Positions 90-11,416 of a stretch of 38,508 nt of DNA are shown here, one piece after another (position 1 is the stretch's first letter; every line of letters begins with the position of its first letter). The DNA comes from a virus. Location of the stretch: the IMG/VR virus record IMGVR_UViG_3300021962_000266, positions 1 to 38,508 of that record; one strand, written 5' to 3'. The notes beneath the pieces are model-generated. The model had not been told where the DNA came from, did not search any database, and was given only the letters and a program-made list of their open reading frames with translations. Both the position numbers and the translations under genes were made by a program.

Positions 90-161
90 GCGAGAGTAGT
101 ATAACGGTTATTACATCGGCTTGCCAAGCCGAGGACGGCGGTTCGATTCCGCCTTCTCGCT
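90..161 (+). tRNA. tRNA-Gly (GCC)
   Basis: A full cloverleaf can be drawn. The acceptor stem is GCGAGAG paired with TTCTCGC, the anticodon stem-loop is TCGGC-TTGCCAA-GCCGA with anticodon GCC, and the T-arm has GGTTCGATTCC. The discriminator base is U, as expected for glycine. CCA is not encoded. It is the first of six phage tRNAs in the first 2.4 kb. Confidence 0.95.
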
Positions 162-187
162 CAAGTTGATTTTTTTTTGGACAACCA

Positions 188-197
188 TATATTTATA
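188..197 (+). promoter_or_regulatory. late-type TATATTTATA element upstream of the HNH gene
   Basis: TATATTTATA lies 19 nt before the ATG at 217. It matches the element repeated before many genes in this window, though the spacing is longer than the usual 4-5 nt. Confidence 0.45.
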
Positions 198-216
198 TAA
201 TAAAGTGGTCGTCCAT

Positions 217-618
217 ATGAGAAATAGAGAAAAAAAAGAAAAAATTTGTTTGAACTGTGGGTTAGATATTCCTAACAGAAATGTTTATTGTGATAATAAA
301 TGTCAGTTAGAATACCAACTTAAAGGTAAATTTCTTCTATTGGAAGAAGGAAAATTTGAAACATTAGGTAGAGAAGATAATATAGATGTTTTAACTAAAA
401 AATATCTTATTATAAAACATGGTGAAAAGTGTATGAGTTGTGGGTGGTCAAAAACTAACAAATGGACCAAAAAAATACCAATACAATTAAACCATATAGA
501 TGGAAACCCACACAACCACACAATTTCAAACACAGAATTATTGTGTCCAAATTGCCATTCTTTAACCGAGTTTTTTGGTAGACGAGGTAAAGGGAGAAAA
601 TGGAGATATGATGAATAA
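217..618 (+). CDS. HNH homing-type endonuclease with N-terminal zinc finger
   Basis: A 133-residue protein predicted to nick or cut DNA, probably as a free-standing homing endonuclease in the tRNA cluster. Residues 11-29 hold a CxxC...CxxxC zinc-finger-like unit (CLNC, CDNKC). The C-terminal half holds CMSC (about 72-75), then the HNH core LNHIDGNPHN (His93) and LLCPNCHS (about 109-115), giving the metal-binding Cys pairs of phage HNH enzymes. The frame is open further upstream through the tRNA-Gly, but the ATG at 217 is preferred because it excludes the tRNA, begins right at the conserved domain and has a late-type promoter motif before it. It sits between tRNA-Gly and tRNA-Asp, a common place for such selfish genes. 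Confidence 0.85.
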   Translation: MRNREKKEKICLNCGLDIPNRNVYCDNKCQLEYQLKGKFLLLEEGKFETLGREDNIDVLTKKYLIIKHGEKCMSCGWSKTNKWTKKIPIQLNHIDGNPHNHTISNTELLCPNCHSLTEFFGRRGKGRKWRYDE

Positions 619-622
619 ATAT

Positions 623-699
623 GGCTCGTTAGTAGAGATGGTTACAATGTCGCCCTGTCACGGCGAAGGTCACGGGTTCGAGTCCCGTACGAGCCGCCA
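623..699 (+). tRNA. tRNA-Asp (GTC), CCA encoded
   Basis: Acceptor stem GGCTCGT/ACGAGCC, anticodon loop CTGTCAC with anticodon GTC, T-loop GTTCGAGTC, discriminator G as expected for Asp. This is the only tRNA of the set with a genomically encoded CCA (697-699). It starts 4 nt after the HNH stop codon. Confidence 0.95.
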
Positions 700-803
700 T
701 GTATTTTATAAGAATGTTTAATAAAATAGTTAAATTTCTTGTTTCCTTAGATACTCACAGAATCAATTCTATGATTCATTGTGGTAAATCGTTTTTTTAA
801 TAA

Positions 804-878
804 GGGCTGTCATGTACCAAGGCTTGGCGTTTCTCCCTTGCAAGGAGAGAGTGGTGGGTTCGATTCCCACACGGTCCA
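804..878 (+). tRNA. tRNA-Ala (TGC)
   Basis: Acceptor GGGCTGT/ACGGTCC includes a G3-U70 wobble, the alanine identity element. The anticodon stem-loop is TCTCC-CTTGCAA-GGAGA with anticodon TGC. The T-arm is GTGGG-TTCGATT-CCCAC. No encoded CCA. Confidence 0.93.
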
Positions 879-900
879 CAAGTCCGTGACTTATTATTTT

Positions 901-974
901 CGGGATGTAGCGCAGTCCGGTAGCGCACCTGGTTTGGGACCAGGGAGTCCCAGGTTCGAATCCTGGTATCCCGA
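901..974 (+). tRNA. tRNA-Pro (TGG)
   Basis: Acceptor CGGGATG/TATCCCG, anticodon stem-loop CCTGG-TTTGGGA-CCAGG with anticodon TGG, T-arm CCAGG-TTCGAAT-CCTGG, discriminator A. No encoded CCA. Confidence 0.95.
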
Positions 975-1005
975 CAAAAAATTTTCCAATATCAAAAATA
1001 TTTCT

Positions 1006-1013
1006 TATCTTTG
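1006..1013 (+). promoter_or_regulatory. Bacteroidota-type -7 box TATCTTTG
   Basis: TATCTTTG matches the Bacteroidota -7 consensus TAnnTTTG and ends 4 nt before the ATG at 1018. No clear -33 TTG is visible, only a T-rich stretch near 982-986. The spacing implies an mRNA with almost no 5' leader. Confidence 0.6.
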
Positions 1014-1017
1014 TACC

Positions 1018-1308
1018 ATGAGCGATAAACAAAGAATCAAAGGAATGATGATAGGGCTAGTATTATGGGCCTTTTTAGTAATCTTCGTAGTTATTTTTAT
1101 GTCAAGTTGTGGAAAATCAAAACCTATGGTTGAACCTGGTGACGTTGTTAAAAAAATTGTGGTGGATTCTGTGGAAATTCTACCCCCACATTCAACGATA
1201 GAACCTGACAATCGTTATAGGTATTTTACCTCAGATAGTTCTGAGTTTATTTCATCAACAAAATACAGGGTTGGTGACACCATAACTTGTGTCTACAAAA
1301 AACTTTAG
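1018..1308 (+). CDS. small membrane lipoprotein-like protein
   Basis: A 96-residue protein with a short basic N-terminus, one hydrophobic helix (about 11-28) and a lipobox-like FMSSC with Cys31, followed by a hydrophilic tail ending YRVGDTITCVYKKL. This suggests an inner-membrane anchor or a lipidated envelope protein. The ATG at 1018 is chosen because a TATCTTTG promoter box ends 4 nt upstream; the longer open frame would run through tRNA-Ala and tRNA-Pro. It converges with the minus-strand gene ending at 1305 and overlaps it by 4 nt. No family was recognised. A host-type promoter suggests early or constitutive expression, which would fit a role in altering the host envelope, but that is inference. 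Confidence 0.7.
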   Translation: MSDKQRIKGMMIGLVLWAFLVIFVVIFMSSCGKSKPMVEPGDVVKKIVVDSVEILPPHSTIEPDNRYRYFTSDSSEFISSTKYRVGDTITCVYKKL

Positions 1309-1970
1309 TAGTCGGAAAAATTGATAAGGGTTTTGATTCTATCAAACTGTTCTGATAGATTTGAATCTTTTGGAAATTGTTCTTCTTTACCATTTTCCAT
1401 AACAAGATAGTCAATCTCCGCCCCATAAGGTTTGGTAATCATATTGCTCAAATCGGATAATATTCTATCTTCCAAAGACTCAACAAAACCATTATCACCA
1501 TCAAAAAAATCTCTGTCTAATTCGTAGGACATTTCATCGTATTGTGGGGAATCTTTTTCTACTTGAGGATAATATTTGTCCAAAAATTCAAAACTGTCAT
1601 TACAATCGTAAATCTCTTTTATAGTTAAGGTAATGGGGTCATACTGGGAATGGTCAATTGTTACTTTTCCGTTTGGGTCTATCGCAACTTCAACCCTATC
1701 AATATCATCAAGTCCATATTGTTCAATATCCGTAATTAAATAATCAATGTCGTAATGTGGGGTTTTTAATTTATATTTTTTACCAATAAAACTTTCTATA
1801 AGTCTAACCCAATTTCTTTCACCGTAATATCTTTTTGCTAACTGAAGTATATCATTTCGTTCTCTTGGAATATTGAACATACGAAATGGTGTCCTATCAA
1901 AAAAGTTTGGACCACCCTGTTTTTCCCAATATTTTGAGATGGCTTTATATTGTTGTCTAGTTATTCCCAC
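1305..1970 (-). CDS. hypothetical acidic protein, GTG start
   Basis: A 221-residue protein, rich in Asp, Glu and Tyr, starting VGITRQQYKAISKYWEKQGG and not recognised as a known family. An upstream TTG (2021) would add 17 residues. GTG at 1970-1968 is preferred because the minus strand carries TATTTAT (1981-1975) just 4 nt before it, the same geometry as other late-type starts here. No signal peptide, membrane segment or catalytic motif is obvious. It ends convergently with the lipoprotein gene on the plus strand. Confidence 0.6.
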   Translation of the reverse strand: MGITRQQYKAISKYWEKQGGPNFFDRTPFRMFNIPRERNDILQLAKRYYGERNWVRLIESFIGKKYKLKTPHYDIDYLITDIEQYGLDDIDRVEVAIDPNGKVTIDHSQYDPITLTIKEIYDCNDSFEFLDKYYPQVEKDSPQYDEMSYELDRDFFDGDNGFVESLEDRILSDLSNMITKPYGAEIDYLVMENGKEEQFPKDSNLSEQFDRIKTLINFSDY

Positions 1971-1974
1971 GATA

Positions 1975-1981
1975 ATAAATA
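1975..1981 (-). promoter_or_regulatory. late-type TATTTAT element, 4 nt before a GTG start
   Basis: On the minus strand TATTTAT is followed by TATC and then GTG. This supports the GTG start and shows that the element also works on the minus strand. Confidence 0.6.
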
Positions 1982-2013
1982 TTTGTTTTTTTGGTTTAGA
2001 TGATATATATTTG
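1982..2013 (+). promoter_or_regulatory. Bacteroidota-type promoter TTTG-N20-TATATTTG
   Basis: TTTG at 1982-1985 and TATATTTG at 2006-2013 are separated by 20 nt, a full match to the Bacteroidota vegetative promoter. It drives the small gene at 2038 and probably the tRNA pair downstream. It overlaps the minus-strand late-type element at 1975-1981 region, so the two divergent promoters abut. Confidence 0.7.
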
Positions 2014-2037
2014 TATAACAATTAAATAACCACAGTT

Positions 2038-2235
2038 ATGACTTTCCCAAAAGATAAAAAACCAATCAATCTTGACAAGTTGATTGAAGTATCAAACGAC
2101 AATGAGGTTCAAATCAATGTTGAAAACATGGTATATAAAATGGGCGAAGTTATAGAAATACAAAAATCAAAACAACCTGTTTACATTGAAGATGAGTGGG
2201 ATAACATTCACGGAGACGTAACTCACTTCAGATAA
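2038..2235 (+). CDS. small hypothetical acidic protein
   Basis: A 65-residue hydrophilic protein (MTFPKDKKPINLDKL at the start, GDVTHFR at the end), without recognised domain, membrane segment or cysteine. It follows a well-formed host-type promoter by 24 nt and precedes tRNA-Ile and tRNA-Met, so it may be co-transcribed with them. Small early phage proteins of this type often bind host factors, but nothing in the sequence shows a target. Confidence 0.6.
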   Translation: MTFPKDKKPINLDKLIEVSNDNEVQINVENMVYKMGEVIEIQKSKQPVYIEDEWDNIHGDVTHFR

Positions 2236-2241
2236 TTTAAT

Positions 2242-2315
2242 AGACGGGTGGCGCAATTGGTTAGCGCAGGATTCTTATACAATCAAGGTTACGGGTTCAA
2301 GTCCCGTCTCGTCTA
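2242..2315 (+). tRNA. tRNA-Ile (TAT)
   Basis: Acceptor AGACGGG/CTCGTCT, D-stem GCGC/GCGC, T-arm ACGGG-TTCAAGT-CCCGT, discriminator A. The anticodon loop CTTATAC gives anticodon TAT, reading AUA. The top pair of the anticodon stem is a G27-A43 mismatch. Bacteria usually read AUA with a lysidine-modified CAT tRNA, so TAT is noteworthy. Confidence 0.85.
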
Positions 2316-2322
2316 CAATAAA

Positions 2323-2396
2323 GGGCCCTTAGCTCAGTCGGTCAGAGCAGGACACTCATAATGTCAAGGTCGTAGGTTCGAACCCTACAGGGCCCA
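2323..2396 (+). tRNA. tRNA-Met (CAT)
   Basis: Acceptor GGGCCCT/AGGGCCC, D-stem GCTC/GAGC, anticodon loop CTCATAA (CAT), T-arm GTAGG-TTCGAAC-CCTAC, discriminator A. The anticodon stem has the same G27-A43 mismatch as the neighbouring tRNA-Ile. It could be elongator Met or lysidine-type Ile; the paired first base argues against initiator Met. Confidence 0.88.
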
Positions 2397-2435
2397 CAAA
2401 ATTATTGTCATAACGACATTTATTTGGGAACTTCC

Positions 2436-6743: not shown

Positions 6744-6751
6744 TTTTTTTG

Positions 6752-6759
6752 TATCTTTG
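6752..6759 (+). promoter_or_regulatory. Bacteroidota-type -7 box TATCTTTG
   Basis: TATCTTTG ends 7 nt before the ATG at 6767; the -33 element is not clear. It begins 9 nt after the preceding stop codon, giving the peptidase its own host-type promoter. Confidence 0.6.
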
Positions 6760-6766
6760 CATACAA

Positions 6767-7600
6767 ATGGAAAGATTGCAATTATTAAAGGACGTATTAT
6801 CCGTTCCAACCTGTACTTACAAGGAAGATAAAATGGTTGAGTTTTTGAAAAACTACTTAACAGAAAAAAACTATGACTTTTTTGTTGATGAACACAATAA
6901 TGTTTATGTCGCCAAAACTTCACCTGAATTTGAGGGTCAACCTTTTCCATGTGTGGTTGCTCATACCGATACCGTGCATTGGGGTATGAAACCAATTAAC
7001 ATTAAAGAGGAAATTAAGAGAGATTTCCAACTCAAAGAAAAATTAGCGTTAAAAGGTTATGATGATGATGGTCATCCGTCAGGGATTGGTGGAGACGACA
7101 AGGCTGGTGTCTTTGGTTGTTTAGTTTGTTTGGAAGATTTACCTCACATTAAAGTGGCGTTGTTTGTTTCTGAAGAAACGGGTTGTCACGGCTCAAAAAA
7201 AGCGGATGAAAATTTCTTTTCCAATGTTGGTTACACCATCCAATTTGACGGACCTGAAAATTATATGATTACCGAAGTGTGTCACGGTGTTAGATTGTTT
7301 GACCGTGATAGTGAATTTTTCAATGTGATTGATTCCGTATTCAAAGAGAAGATGGAATATCACGAATATATGATTCACCCCTACACTGACGTGGCTATGT
7401 TAAAAAAGAAGTTTGACTTTGCCTGTGTGAATATCTCCATCGGTTATTACAACTACCATACACCACATGAATATGTTGTCTTAGATGACGTAGAAAGAGG
7501 TATTGACGTGTGTAAGACAATCATTGAACGTCTTGGTAATACCAAACAAGAATATGTATATAAACCTATTAGGATGGATTATAATTCTTGGACTTACTAA
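6767..7600 (+). CDS. M20-family metallopeptidase (aminopeptidase or tripeptidase-like)
   Basis: A 277-residue cytoplasmic enzyme predicted to hydrolyse small peptides with a two-zinc centre. The metal-site residues of the M20 clan can be followed in order: VVAHTDT (His66, Asp68), GGDDKAG (Asp110), SEETG (Glu136/137, the catalytic base and a ligand), QFDG (Asp161) and YNYHTPHE (His231/His234). The protein is shorter than typical PepT, suggesting a reduced lid domain. ATG at 6767 is chosen because the TATCTTTG promoter box lies just upstream and would overlap a longer reading. It sits between the RWCT-motif gene and ClpC, near tmRNA, so it could finish degradation of unfoldase products and recycle amino acids for phage synthesis; that link is inference. 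Confidence 0.85.
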   Translation: MERLQLLKDVLSVPTCTYKEDKMVEFLKNYLTEKNYDFFVDEHNNVYVAKTSPEFEGQPFPCVVAHTDTVHWGMKPINIKEEIKRDFQLKEKLALKGYDDDGHPSGIGGDDKAGVFGCLVCLEDLPHIKVALFVSEETGCHGSKKADENFFSNVGYTIQFDGPENYMITEVCHGVRLFDRDSEFFNVIDSVFKEKMEYHEYMIHPYTDVAMLKKKFDFACVNISIGYYNYHTPHEYVVLDDVERGIDVCKTIIERLGNTKQEYVYKPIRMDYNSWTY

Positions 7601-8164: not shown

Positions 8165-8192
8165 AAAAAAAGGGTCTTACGACCCTTTTTCT
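8165..8192. terminator. bidirectional terminator between convergent genes
   Basis: AAAAAGGGTC and GACCCTTTTT form the stem around TTAC. The clpC stop codon (8179-8177) lies in this loop, so the hairpin overlaps the end of that gene while also ending the gene at 7652. Confidence 0.85.
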
Positions 8193-10186
8193 ATTTTGAT
8201 TGATTCATCATACATGAGGATGTAATGTTCGTTTTCCACTACATTACCCACCAAGTATTCTTCTGAGATAAAATCTTCTACTTCATCCTGAATTGCTCTT
8301 TTGATTGGTCGTGCACCAAATGCCTCGTCAAATCCTACCTTGGCAATGTGTTGAATCATTGACTCGTCACAAACGAAGTGTAATTTCAACTCCTCCAAAC
8401 GAGTAATCAATTTTGACATTTCAAGACGAACAATTTGTTCAATTTCAGGTTGTTTCAAAGAGTTGAATACAATAACTTCGTCAATACGGTTCAAGAACTC
8501 AGGAGAAAAATAGTTCTTCATCTCTTTTTGGAGAATCTGACGTTTGTATTCTTCTTGAGTTGATGAACTTGATAAAGTATTGAATCCAATACCGTTTCCA
8601 AAATCTTGAAGTTTTTTTACACCCAAGTTTGAGGTCATAATAATCAAACAATTTTTGAAGTTAATTTTTCTACCCAAAGAATCGGTCAAGTGACCTTCGT
8701 CCAACATCTGTAACAATGTATTGAAGATTTCTTTGTTTGCCTTTTCAACCTCATCAAAAAGGATTACTGAATAGGGTTTGTTTTTAACCTGTTCGGTCAA
8801 CTGTCCACCTTCATCATAACCAACGTAACCTGGAGGGGCTCCAATCAATTTAGAAATGGTGTGTTTTTCTTGGAACTCTGACATATCCACACGGATAAGG
8901 TTGTTTTCACTACCAAAAATTTGTTTTGCCAGTTGTTTTGCCAAGTGAGTTTTACCTACACCTGTTGAACCCAAGAAAATGAATGAACCGATGGGTTTAT
9001 TTGGGTCTTTAATTCCCAATCGGTTTCTACGGATTGATTTTGCGATTTTGGTAACCGCTTCTTCTTGTCCGATAACTTTATCCATCAGTGATTTATCCAA
9101 ACCAATAAGACTTGTTTTATCATCAACGGAAATTTTTGATACCGGAATTTTAGTCATTGACGATACTACATCTAAAACAAGTTCCAACGAGATTTCTCTT
9201 TTCTTTTCAGAGATTTCTTGTTCATACTTTTCTTTCTCCGCCTCCAATTTTGCGGAAATTTTCTTTTCCTTGTTCCTCAATTCTGCCGCTTCTTCATACT
9301 TCTGTTTCTTCACCACTTCTTTTTTCTTCTCACCAATTTCACGAAGAGCCGCAGTTAATTTTTCAATACTTTCAGGAACTTTTGCCTCAACTTGAGCACG
9401 GGCACCAACTTCATCCATAATGTCGAACGCTTTGTCGGGAAACTCACGGTCTGTGATGTAACGGTCAGCAAGGTTTACACATAGTTCAAGTACTTCATCA
9501 GAATAACTTACTTTGTGATAAGACTCATACTTACCTCTCAAGTTTTCAAGGATGATGAGTGTTTCTTTTTTGGATGGAGAATCTACTACGACTTTTTGGA
9601 ATCGACGTTCCAAAGCCCCATCTTTTTCAAAGTTAGTACGATACTCGTCTAATGTTGTTGCTCCGATACATTGAATCTCTCCACGAGCAAGTGCGGGTTT
9701 GAAGATGTTGGATGCGTCCATAGAACCTGAAGCATTACCGGCTCCAACGATGGTATGAATCTCATCGATGAAAACTACAATGTCAGGATTTTTAGAAAGT
9801 TCGTCAATAATAACTTTCAAACGTTCTTCAAACTGTCCACGGTATTTTGTACCCGCAACAATAGAAGTCATGTCTAACAAAACGATTCGTTTGTTCAAAA
9901 GGTTTCGTGGACAATCTCCGTTGAAGATTTTCATTGCTAATCCTTCTACGATTGCAGTTTTACCACAACCCGGCTCACCAATGATAATAGGGTTGTTTTT
10001 CTTTCTACGAGAAAGAATTTGTGCAATTCGTTGAATTTCTTGTTCTCTACCAACTACAGGGTCCAACTTACCTTCAGACGATAGTTTAATAAGGTCTTTA
10101 GAAAAATTGTCCAATACTGGTGTTGATGAACCTCCACGTTTTGTGGACGGTTTGATGTTGTCGTTATCGTCAATAGAATCAATCAT
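8177..10186 (-). CDS. clpC: ClpC/ClpA-type AAA+ unfoldase lacking the Clp N-domain
   Basis: A 669-residue two-ring ATPase that unfolds proteins for a ClpP-type protease. D1 has Walker A GEPGCGKT (about 70-77) and Walker B VVFIDE (about 137-142). A middle domain (about 275-330) carries a UVR-like KYEEAAELRNKEK, typical of ClpC. D2 has GSTGVGKT (about 406-413), VILFDE, pore GYVGYDEG and the C-terminal FLNRIDEV. The tripeptide IGF at about 533-535 matches the ClpP-binding loop, so it could dock to host ClpP; no clpP is visible here. The N-terminal adaptor-binding domain is replaced by a 20-residue tail. A TATCTTTG box lies 4 nt before the ATG. Confidence 0.95.
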   Translation of the reverse strand: MIDSIDDNDNIKPSTKRGGSSTPVLDNFSKDLIKLSSEGKLDPVVGREQEIQRIAQILSRRKKNNPIIIGEPGCGKTAIVEGLAMKIFNGDCPRNLLNKRIVLLDMTSIVAGTKYRGQFEERLKVIIDELSKNPDIVVFIDEIHTIVGAGNASGSMDASNIFKPALARGEIQCIGATTLDEYRTNFEKDGALERRFQKVVVDSPSKKETLIILENLRGKYESYHKVSYSDEVLELCVNLADRYITDREFPDKAFDIMDEVGARAQVEAKVPESIEKLTAALREIGEKKKEVVKKQKYEEAAELRNKEKKISAKLEAEKEKYEQEISEKKREISLELVLDVVSSMTKIPVSKISVDDKTSLIGLDKSLMDKVIGQEEAVTKIAKSIRRNRLGIKDPNKPIGSFIFLGSTGVGKTHLAKQLAKQIFGSENNLIRVDMSEFQEKHTISKLIGAPPGYVGYDEGGQLTEQVKNKPYSVILFDEVEKANKEIFNTLLQMLDEGHLTDSLGRKINFKNCLIIMTSNLGVKKLQDFGNGIGFNTLSSSSTQEEYKRQILQKEMKNYFSPEFLNRIDEVIVFNSLKQPEIEQIVRLEMSKLITRLEELKLHFVCDESMIQHIAKVGFDEAFGARPIKRAIQDEVEDFISEEYLVGNVVENEHYILMYDESIKIEKGS

Positions 10187-10190
10187 GTTA

Positions 10191-10220
10191 CAAAGATAAT
10201 AGTTTTATTTGATAATTCAA
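10191..10220 (-). promoter_or_regulatory. Bacteroidota-type promoter of clpC
   Basis: On the minus strand TTG (10220-10218) and TATCTTTG (10198-10191) are separated by 19 nt; the box ends 4 nt before the ATG. The first operator-like palindrome begins 3 nt upstream of the -33 element. Confidence 0.75.
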
Positions 10221-10223
10221 CTA

Positions 10224-10236
10224 TGACAATTTGTCA
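10224..10236. promoter_or_regulatory. operator-like palindrome 1, TGACA-ATT-TGTCA
   Basis: A 13-bp dyad lying between the divergent clpC and UVR-protein promoters, immediately upstream of the clpC -33 element. Its centre is 21 bp from that of palindrome 2. Confidence 0.65.
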
Positions 10237-10243
10237 AACTAAA

Positions 10244-10258
10244 CTGACAAAATGTCAG
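10244..10258. promoter_or_regulatory. operator-like palindrome 2, CTGACA-AAA-TGTCAG
   Basis: A 15-bp dyad with the same TGACA-N3-TGTCA core as palindrome 1 and two helical turns away. It directly adjoins the presumed -33 of the plus-strand promoter, so the arrangement mirrors palindrome 1 and clpC. Confidence 0.65.
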
Positions 10259-10259
10259 G

Positions 10260-10290
10260 TTTACTTGTTTGGCATAGTTTTGTATATTTA
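10260..10290 (+). promoter_or_regulatory. promoter of the UVR-protein gene, TTTA-N19-TATATTTA
   Basis: A weaker match: TTTA 10260-10263 and TATATTTA 10283-10290, 19 nt apart. The ATG at 10329 follows a 38-nt A-rich leader. Confidence 0.45.
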
Positions 10291-10328
10291 CAGATACAAA
10301 GATAAAAAATAAAAATTAGAAAAAAAAT

Positions 10329-10793
10329 ATGTTTAATTTATTTGGAAGAAATCACGGAAAATCTCTTAAAGAGATGATGCAGGAACTTGATGAAATGATG
10401 GAATCTTTAAATTGGGAAGAAACCACTAAACCTAGTGACGAAATTACTGAAAAGACTGAAAAGGGTAGTGATGATAATGGTGATTGGATTAAAACCACAT
10501 ATATATCACCTAGTGGTGTTAGATACTCCATGACCACAACCTATTATGATGGTACACCCAAAAGTTTTAATAAACCAAAGAACGAGTTATCAGTTTTGAA
10601 ACGTCAGTTAGAAAAAGCTGTTGAAGAACAAGACTTTGAAAAAGCGGTTGAACTCAGAGATAAAATTAAAAACTTTGAGACCAATAAACAAGAAATTGAA
10701 AAATTGGAGACCGAGTTAAAGACTGCGGTTGACAGTCAGGACTTTGAAACGGCAATCAAAATACGAGACCAGATTAAAAAAATGAAATCCTAA
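10329..10793 (+). CDS. two-UVR-motif protein, candidate ClpC partner
   Basis: A 154-residue protein. Two tandem UVR motifs occupy the C-terminal half: LKRQLEKAVEEQDFEKAVEL (about 90-109, continuing RDKIK) and LETELKTAVDSQDFETAIKI (about 126-145, continuing RDQIKK). UVR motifs occur in UvrB, UvrC, McsA and in the ClpC middle domain; McsA-type proteins act on ClpC. No zinc-binding CxxC units as in McsA are present. The N-terminal 75 residues contain an amphipathic helix (KSLKEMMQELDEMMESLNW) and a Tyr/Thr-rich strand. Divergent from phage clpC with shared palindromes between them, it is probably an adaptor or regulator of that unfoldase. This role is inferred from motif and location. Confidence 0.8.
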   Translation: MFNLFGRNHGKSLKEMMQELDEMMESLNWEETTKPSDEITEKTEKGSDDNGDWIKTTYISPSGVRYSMTTTYYDGTPKSFNKPKNELSVLKRQLEKAVEEQDFEKAVELRDKIKNFETNKQEIEKLETELKTAVDSQDFETAIKIRDQIKKMKS

Positions 10794-11173: not shown

Positions 11174-11416
11174 ATGGGAATCAAAAACCAAACAATAGAA
11201 GGAACTAAAATTATTAACGAGATTGAATCGTCTAATTTAGTAAAAACAATTTATGATACCGCAGATAGTACTTTAATTGCGGAATTTAAAAATGGGTCAC
11301 AGTATAAATACGAAGATGTCCCACACGTAGAATATGTAAAACTTAGAAGTGCCGAATCACAAGGAACATATTTTAACACACAAATAGCCAAAAAATACAA
11401 ATACTCAAAAGTGTAG
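11174..11416 (+). CDS. KTSC-domain protein
   Basis: An 80-residue protein, nearly all of it a KTSC domain. The pattern is SSNLVKTIYDTADSTLIAEF, then NGSQYKYEDVPHVEYVKL, then AESQGTYFNTQIAKKYKY. This small domain is found alone or fused to many bacterial and phage proteins, and its biochemical role is unsettled. Its Lys, Thr, Ser and Cys positions that give the name are only partly kept here (Cys absent). It begins 3 nt after the previous gene and its stop codon is directly followed by the late-type element of the next gene. Confidence 0.8.
   Translation: MGIKNQTIEGTKIINEIESSNLVKTIYDTADSTLIAEFKNGSQYKYEDVPHVEYVKLRSAESQGTYFNTQIAKKYKYSKV

Follow-up and report, generated by a model that had tools for sequence, protein, structure and literature searches.

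The ClpC unfoldases of Bacteroidota, Bacillus subtilis and Staphylococcus aureus have two Clp_N repeats ahead of D1, M and D2 domains in that order, with pore loops, Walker motifs and a ClpP-docking loop. The adaptor ClpS docks on the N domain of ClpC. All characterised ClpC adaptors bind this domain, according to a 2025 paper (PMC12583610). S. aureus dN-ClpC, a laboratory deletion in which the N domain is removed and the M domain kept, assembles into planar rings. These join in head-to-head pairs and yield rods together with ClpP, and no proteolysis takes place unless the M-domain contacts are disrupted (PMC12583610, PMC5699869). Residues F436, R443 and D444 of the S. aureus protein make these head-to-head contacts, and the D444A substitution gives adaptor-independent activity (PMC5699869).

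Gp53 of phage SPO1 stimulates the ClpC ATPase in an adaptor-like manner; its target is the ClpC of the host, on which its site overlaps with the one used by host adaptors (PMC6873191). Proteins with UVR motifs are linked to ClpC in other systems (McsA, ClpF and plastid UVR-domain proteins), and plastid CLPC1 traps UVR-domain proteins and ClpF (PMC8889267). Large aquatic Bacteroidota phages, the moraphages and the bS21 phages, possess genes for Clp ATPase or protease and for heat-shock proteins (PMC12619734, PMC9723584); the passages of these two papers that were consulted contain no description of N-domain loss, a UVR partner or a shared operator. ClpL is an Hsp100 protein that has a ClpC-like M domain and no Clp_N, and its rings form dimers via their M domains. 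ClpL is not known to have a ClpP loop. It has a small N-terminal domain of its own, which is required for disaggregation (PMC11006417).

The virus record IMGVR_UViG_3300021962_000266, of which positions 1 to 38,508 were analysed (this whole stretch is the window), encodes a ClpC that shares the domain order and motifs listed above but lacks both Clp_N repeats, so that the known adaptor site is gone. It differs from the ClpC of Bacteroidota, B. subtilis and S. aureus also in being phage-encoded and in having a UVR partner whose gene is joined to its own by a common operator-like element. S. aureus dN-ClpC is a laboratory product that shows no activity with ClpP, whereas the phage form occurs in nature, is conserved and has a linked UVR partner; unlike ClpL, it keeps the [VIL]GF loop and lacks the ClpL N-terminal domain; and unlike SPO1, which acts on the ClpC of its host, this phage supplies a ClpC of its own without the domain in question.

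Architecture and conservation of the phage ClpC

The clpC gene (8177-10186, minus strand) encodes an AAA+ unfoldase of 669 residues from an ATG start, identified by its open reading frame, Pfam and PHROG matches and alignments. Pfam recognises AAA, AAA_lid_9, AAA_2, ClpB_D2-small and, at residues 281-312 (9251-9346, minus strand), a UVR-type match that corresponds to the UVR-like hairpin of a ClpC-type M domain, and gives no Clp_N match in the 669 residues. The match to PHROG 4871 begins at position 160 of 764, and the alignment with B. subtilis ClpC, which spans 645 residues, starts at B. subtilis residue 155. Both AAA+ modules have intact Walker A and B motifs and pore loops, as judged from Pfam, the B. 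subtilis alignment and an alignment of phage sequences (D1 Walker A, GEPGCGKT, residues 70-77, 9956-9979; D2 Walker A, GSTGVGKT, residues 406-413, 8948-8971; both on the minus strand). The M-domain residues align with the M domain of B. subtilis, and in the ClpP-docking loop the tripeptide I-G-F (residues 533-535, 8582-8590, minus strand) aligns with the B. subtilis VGF loop. An earlier note on this DNA had read the protein as a ClpC without its N-terminal adaptor domain, with the M domain and an IGF loop for ClpP retained, and is borne out on each of these points. The note had left room for an N domain in a longer frame; the open frame is only 675 residues from stop to stop, and thus no such frame exists. 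Neither is the domain encoded in a separate ORF in 28 related phage records, since a search found no Clp_N in any of them.

Residues 1-20 (10127-10186, minus strand) form a tail that replaces a Clp N domain of about 150 residues and has the conserved start MI(E/D)S.D. The tail had been described as short and acidic: short it is, but it is acidic at first only (MIDSIDDNDN) and then basic and serine-rich. Viral relatives begin at the same point, some 20 residues ahead of a TPVLDNF motif and in most cases with MIES(M/K)D, which supports M1 as the true start. Among other Hsp100 identities, ClpB (803.9 of 1232.1 bits) and ClpA (719.8 of 993.15 bits) were rejected because both NCBIfam equivalog scores fall below the curated cut-offs, and ClpL because of the conserved IGF/VGF loop for ClpP. 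On sequence grounds, the protein is best filed as a natural, conserved variant of ClpC that lacks the Clp_N feature and has the other ClpC features checked.

The N domain is missing in all 80 of the closest viral relatives. The nearest cellular relatives are ClpC proteins of Bacteroidota (53-58% identity), 71 of which, out of 76, were parsed directly as having room for an N domain; three of the remaining five are full-length by inspection (GDPG motif) and two have contig-truncated frames. Within the ClpP loop, G534 and F535 are invariant in an alignment of 21 phage sequences, and every one of the 87 distinct N-less ClpC sequences has [VILM]GF; two of these, with MTTN in place of MTSN, were scored by eye. 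A dN/dS of about 0.05 against the nearest relative, with dS near saturation, indicates that clpC is under purifying selection.

A tree of 74 sequences places the window's ClpC in a monophyletic, top-support clade of 29 phage sequences, and the N-less ClpCs of LR745206 and LR756502 (634- and 642-kb phages) apart from it among cellular Bacteroidota ClpC. A single origin of the N-domain loss was set aside on account of this split, yet an AU test did not reject a joint clade (p = 0.064), so that repeated, independent loss across phage lineages is suggested by the sequences and not proven. Phages of 484-642 kb (L302, L303, L304 and L305) also have an N-less ClpC, and the ClpC of a 735-kb phage (L306) retains an N-terminal region of about 170 residues. 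The ClpC of L290 and L291 (G040) occupies two overlapping frames of 525 and 169 residues, owing to a frameshift or a sequencing error. The INPHARED "phage" records LM 4-11-1, SA 1306 Kay and MD-2021a, in which ClpC or ClpB is full-length and bacterial, seem to stem from contamination with host DNA; the full-length ClpC of such apparently contaminated INPHARED records of Listeria, Staphylococcus and Acinetobacter phages served as outgroups only.

ClpS is encoded in 14 of 16 Bacteroidota genomes, none of the 16 has MecA, and no ClpS is encoded in the related phage records. The phage ClpC is expected to be blind to ClpS because the docking site of this adaptor is the missing N domain. The earlier proposal that the enzyme escapes host adaptors such as ClpS is reasonable and supported, given where the known adaptors bind (PMC12583610), though not proven.

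ClpP of the phage and of the host

Pfam detects a phage ClpP in four of 28 ClpC-bearing related records, most of which are fragments. Among 29 ClpP-bearing phage records found by starting from phage ClpP, 25 also carry N-less ClpC; the ClpC frames in these records are 662-694 residues long and all are N-less, except that of G040, in which the gene is split. Every ClpP-bearing record that reaches 180 kb (14 in all, four of them near-identical) pairs ClpP with N-less ClpC. This co-occurrence implies that a phage-encoded ClpCP is usual in this phage family, and the phage ClpP has apparent Ser-His-Asp catalytic motifs by inspection. The clpP gene is located about 22 kb from clpC in G038, which is farther than the window reaches on that side, and elsewhere in the genome in G028. 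No ClpP is visible in the window, the length of which does not suffice to reveal one. In relatives, clpP is flanked by a peptidoglycan-binding-like gene on one side and an HNH gene on the other. The nearest relative of the window (G001, 90% identity in ClpC), a record of 268.7 kb that is collinear with it, has another gene in this place, and no ClpP was found in the 268.7 kb of this probably incomplete record. The occupant of the slot (L099:11446-12045) encodes a 199-residue protein with the motif HELEHH, possibly a metalloprotease.

The nearest relative, together with the intact IGF loop, would fit a phage that has no ClpP at all and whose N-less ClpC displaces host ClpC or ClpX on host ClpP. 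However, most ClpP-bearing relatives pair a ClpP of their own with N-less ClpC, the gene may sit elsewhere in the genome as in G028, and G001 is without long blocks of genes, 65 of the 133 that two other large members have in common, and is therefore judged probably incomplete and weakened as proof of ClpP absence. Hijacking of host ClpP as the whole explanation is accordingly rather unlikely. The redirection of host ClpP proposed in the earlier note is supported only in part and not in the form given there: the loop is intact and host ClpP may be used in the window's own sublineage, but in 25 of 29 ClpP-bearing records N-less ClpC has a phage ClpP at hand. The ClpP that would serve the window's ClpC is either phage- or host-encoded.

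A second alternative is that the protein acts without ClpP as a stand-alone, ClpL-like unfoldase or disaggregase, for example in virion assembly or in the rescue of aggregates with phage Hsp20 and DnaK. Its N-less architecture with an M domain resembles that of ClpL, the operator-like element described below is common to Hsp20 and DnaK genes, and G001 offers no ClpP in 268.7 kb, but the conservation of the ClpP loop in all N-less sequences, the co-occurrence of ClpP, and the absence from the phage ClpC of the distinct N-terminal domain that ClpL needs for disaggregation (PMC11006417) make this improbable. We prefer to regard the phage ClpC as the putative unfoldase of a ClpCP protease, the ClpP being phage-encoded in most relatives and of phage or host origin here.

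A divergent UVR partner and the M domain

The gene divergent from clpC (10329-10793, plus strand) encodes a protein of 154 residues, characterised by Pfam, NCBIfam, alignment and a structure model, in which the UVR family (PF02151) matches two stretches with 69.4 bits, above the gathering score. Repeat 1 lies at 10578-10679 and repeat 2 at 10686-10787 (both plus strand). The UVR neighbour that the earlier note had mentioned is thus real, and the divergent arrangement is conserved: such a gene is adjacent to clpC at a distance of 55-183 bp in 40 of 87 distinct loci, these being the N-less ClpC loci with enough upstream DNA. The other 47 have no adjacent UVR gene, and some 270-kb relatives (G032-G036) have ClpC and ClpP with no free-standing UVR match, so that the partner is not universally needed and the idea that the enzyme answers to the phage UVR protein only finds no support in that form.

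Invariant residues of the partner in a 26-row alignment include A106 and R110 in repeat 1 and F139, E140, I143 and R146 in repeat 2, and identity with its nearest relative is 44% in the N-terminal part and 67% in the tandem UVR part. By the UVR profile and alignment, Y297, E298, R304 and N305 at the tip of the phage M domain appear equivalent to F436, E437, R443 and D444 of S. aureus ClpC; positions in the Pfam profile likewise would make F139, R146 and D147 of the partner equivalent to Y297, R304 and N305 of the phage ClpC, and to F436, R443 and D444 of S. aureus. The tandem UVR hairpins of the partner therefore seem to share an aromatic-E...R-D tip with the M domain of ClpC. Of the 86 distinct N-less ClpC sequences with a parsed tip, all but two have aspartate at the position of D444; the exceptions, which have asparagine (N305), are those of the window and of its nearest relative (L003).

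McsA was rejected as the identity of the partner, which scores 43.1 of 210 bits, far under the NCBIfam cut-off, and contains no cysteine and hence none of the McsA zinc fingers. It differs from McsA, ClpF and the plastid UVR-domain proteins further in its two tandem UVR repeats and variable N-terminal part. NCBIfam matches extend also to the UVR ends of UvrB and UvrC. The structure model is of moderate quality (pLDDT 72, pTM 0.35) and confident in the UVR helices only, and a fold search with it returned nothing below an E value of 0.001.

The phage ClpC has the composition of the inactive S. aureus dN-ClpC, and a partner that imitates the tip of the M domain would be a fitting release factor for it. 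An opposite role is conceivable, in which the UVR protein inhibits the phage ClpC by keeping it idle, or serves as a decoy that titrates host ClpC or UvrB by pairing of UVR motifs: such motifs do occur in UvrB and UvrC, and roughly every second N-less ClpC is without a neighbouring UVR gene. Where the UVR gene is present, however, it is strictly divergent from clpC and shares the operator-like element with it, which renders this role unlikely.

An operator-like element shared with phage chaperone genes

The 142-bp intergenic region between clpC and the UVR gene (10187-10328) contains two 13-bp palindromes of the pattern TGACA-N3-TGTCA, palindrome A (TGACAATTTGTCA, 10224-10236) and, 21 bp from it, palindrome B (TGACAAAATGTCA, 10245-10257). 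There is no further match in the window, even with one mismatch. That these are chance or promoter-like sequences rather than an operator has some appeal, as promoter-like sequences of host type are seen nearby by inspection and the one-mismatch count within the window alone equals the level expected by chance; the argument for an operator therefore rests on conservation. At least one exact palindrome is present in the intergenic region of 36 of the 40 distinct UVR-adjacent loci (shuffle mean 0.015), amounting to 45 copies in 8.3 kb of intergenic DNA as opposed to none in 277.8 kb of flanking DNA, whereas only two of the 47 loci with no adjacent UVR gene have it. What is new here is this conserved palindromic operator-like element common to clpC and the UVR gene.

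When all viral contigs were searched for the tandem pattern, at least 79 new loci emerged; the reversed control pattern gave no matches. Among the matches listed there are 63 tandem intergenic cases, of which an automatic count finds 48 adjoining ClpC, UVR, Hsp20 or DnaK, with two further Hsp20-like neighbours added by inspection; five of the loci listed have ClpC and Hsp20 (assigned by cluster membership) in divergent orientation, and in two (L412 and L378) ClpC is divergent with DnaK across tandem palindromes. In all 44 distinct cases among those listed beside chaperone genes, the two palindromes are spaced by 21 bp or 30-32 bp, i.e., two or three helical turns, which fits two protein dimers on one face of the DNA. 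With conservation, spacing, chaperone association and the reversed pattern all against it, an origin by chance or as promoter sequence is barely credible. Palindromes in phage clpP loci were discounted as operators, being explained by coding sequence (codons for VNDNMS, by inspection of clpP).

No palindromes were found upstream of host clpC in 80 Bacteroidota loci, and a literature search found no tandem palindrome operator of this kind. The exact tandem (L483:1501-1545) occurs in one of 397 Flavobacteriaceae genomes, 74 bp upstream of a gene that is called Hsp20-like from a reading of its sequence, not from Pfam; a search of 494 kb of this genome showed no further tandem copy and no recognised chaperone gene. 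A cellular heat-shock origin of the element, or transfer in the reverse direction, may be considered on the strength of this single copy.

Other genes in the vicinity of clpC encode, by Pfam, a KTSC-domain protein (11174-11416) and an M20-family peptidase-like protein (6749-7600), and a KTSC-like protein adjoins ClpC in L367 and L401 by eye. Six tRNA genes (Gly, Asp, Ala, Pro, Ile and Met) lie near the left end of the window (90-2397).

The source of the window is probably a large T4-like phage of Bacteroidota in which ClpC would be one arm of a proteostasis module. Such a phage may have taken up a clpC of Bacteroidota type and lost the N domain, retaining the parts for unfolding and ClpP docking. 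With this domain gone, host adaptors such as ClpS would be unable to dock, and the retained M domain would pair rings head to head and leave the enzyme idle; the UVR partner would cap the M domains, split the ring dimers and possibly deliver substrate. A dimeric DNA-binding protein, on two helically phased palindromes, would switch clpC and the UVR gene jointly, and the same element ahead of hsp20 and dnaK in related phages points to a heat-shock-like regulon. An operator-controlled phage ClpCP unfoldase with a UVR partner as regulator of its M domain is the account we favour, the chain as a whole being judged slightly on the probable side. A bolder version is offered tentatively: that the UVR protein, by mimicking the M-domain tip, is the first N-domain-independent activator of ClpC, and that both proteins are members, with Hsp20 and DnaK, of a heat-shock-like regulon of the phage under a helically phased tandem operator, which the phages may have taken from a flavobacterial control element of hsp20 or may have in common with it.

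The control of ClpC is thought to run through the N domain (PMC12583610), and a natural, conserved N-less ClpC thus raises the question of how such an enzyme is switched on, to which the divergently encoded UVR partner is a candidate answer. The N-less form is found in several phage lineages, including phages of 634 and 642 kb. The distribution of the element indicates that large Bacteroidota phages probably co-regulate ClpC, its UVR partner, a small heat-shock protein and DnaK, and the element may offer a way into the question of how protein quality is managed by phages while they infect a cell.
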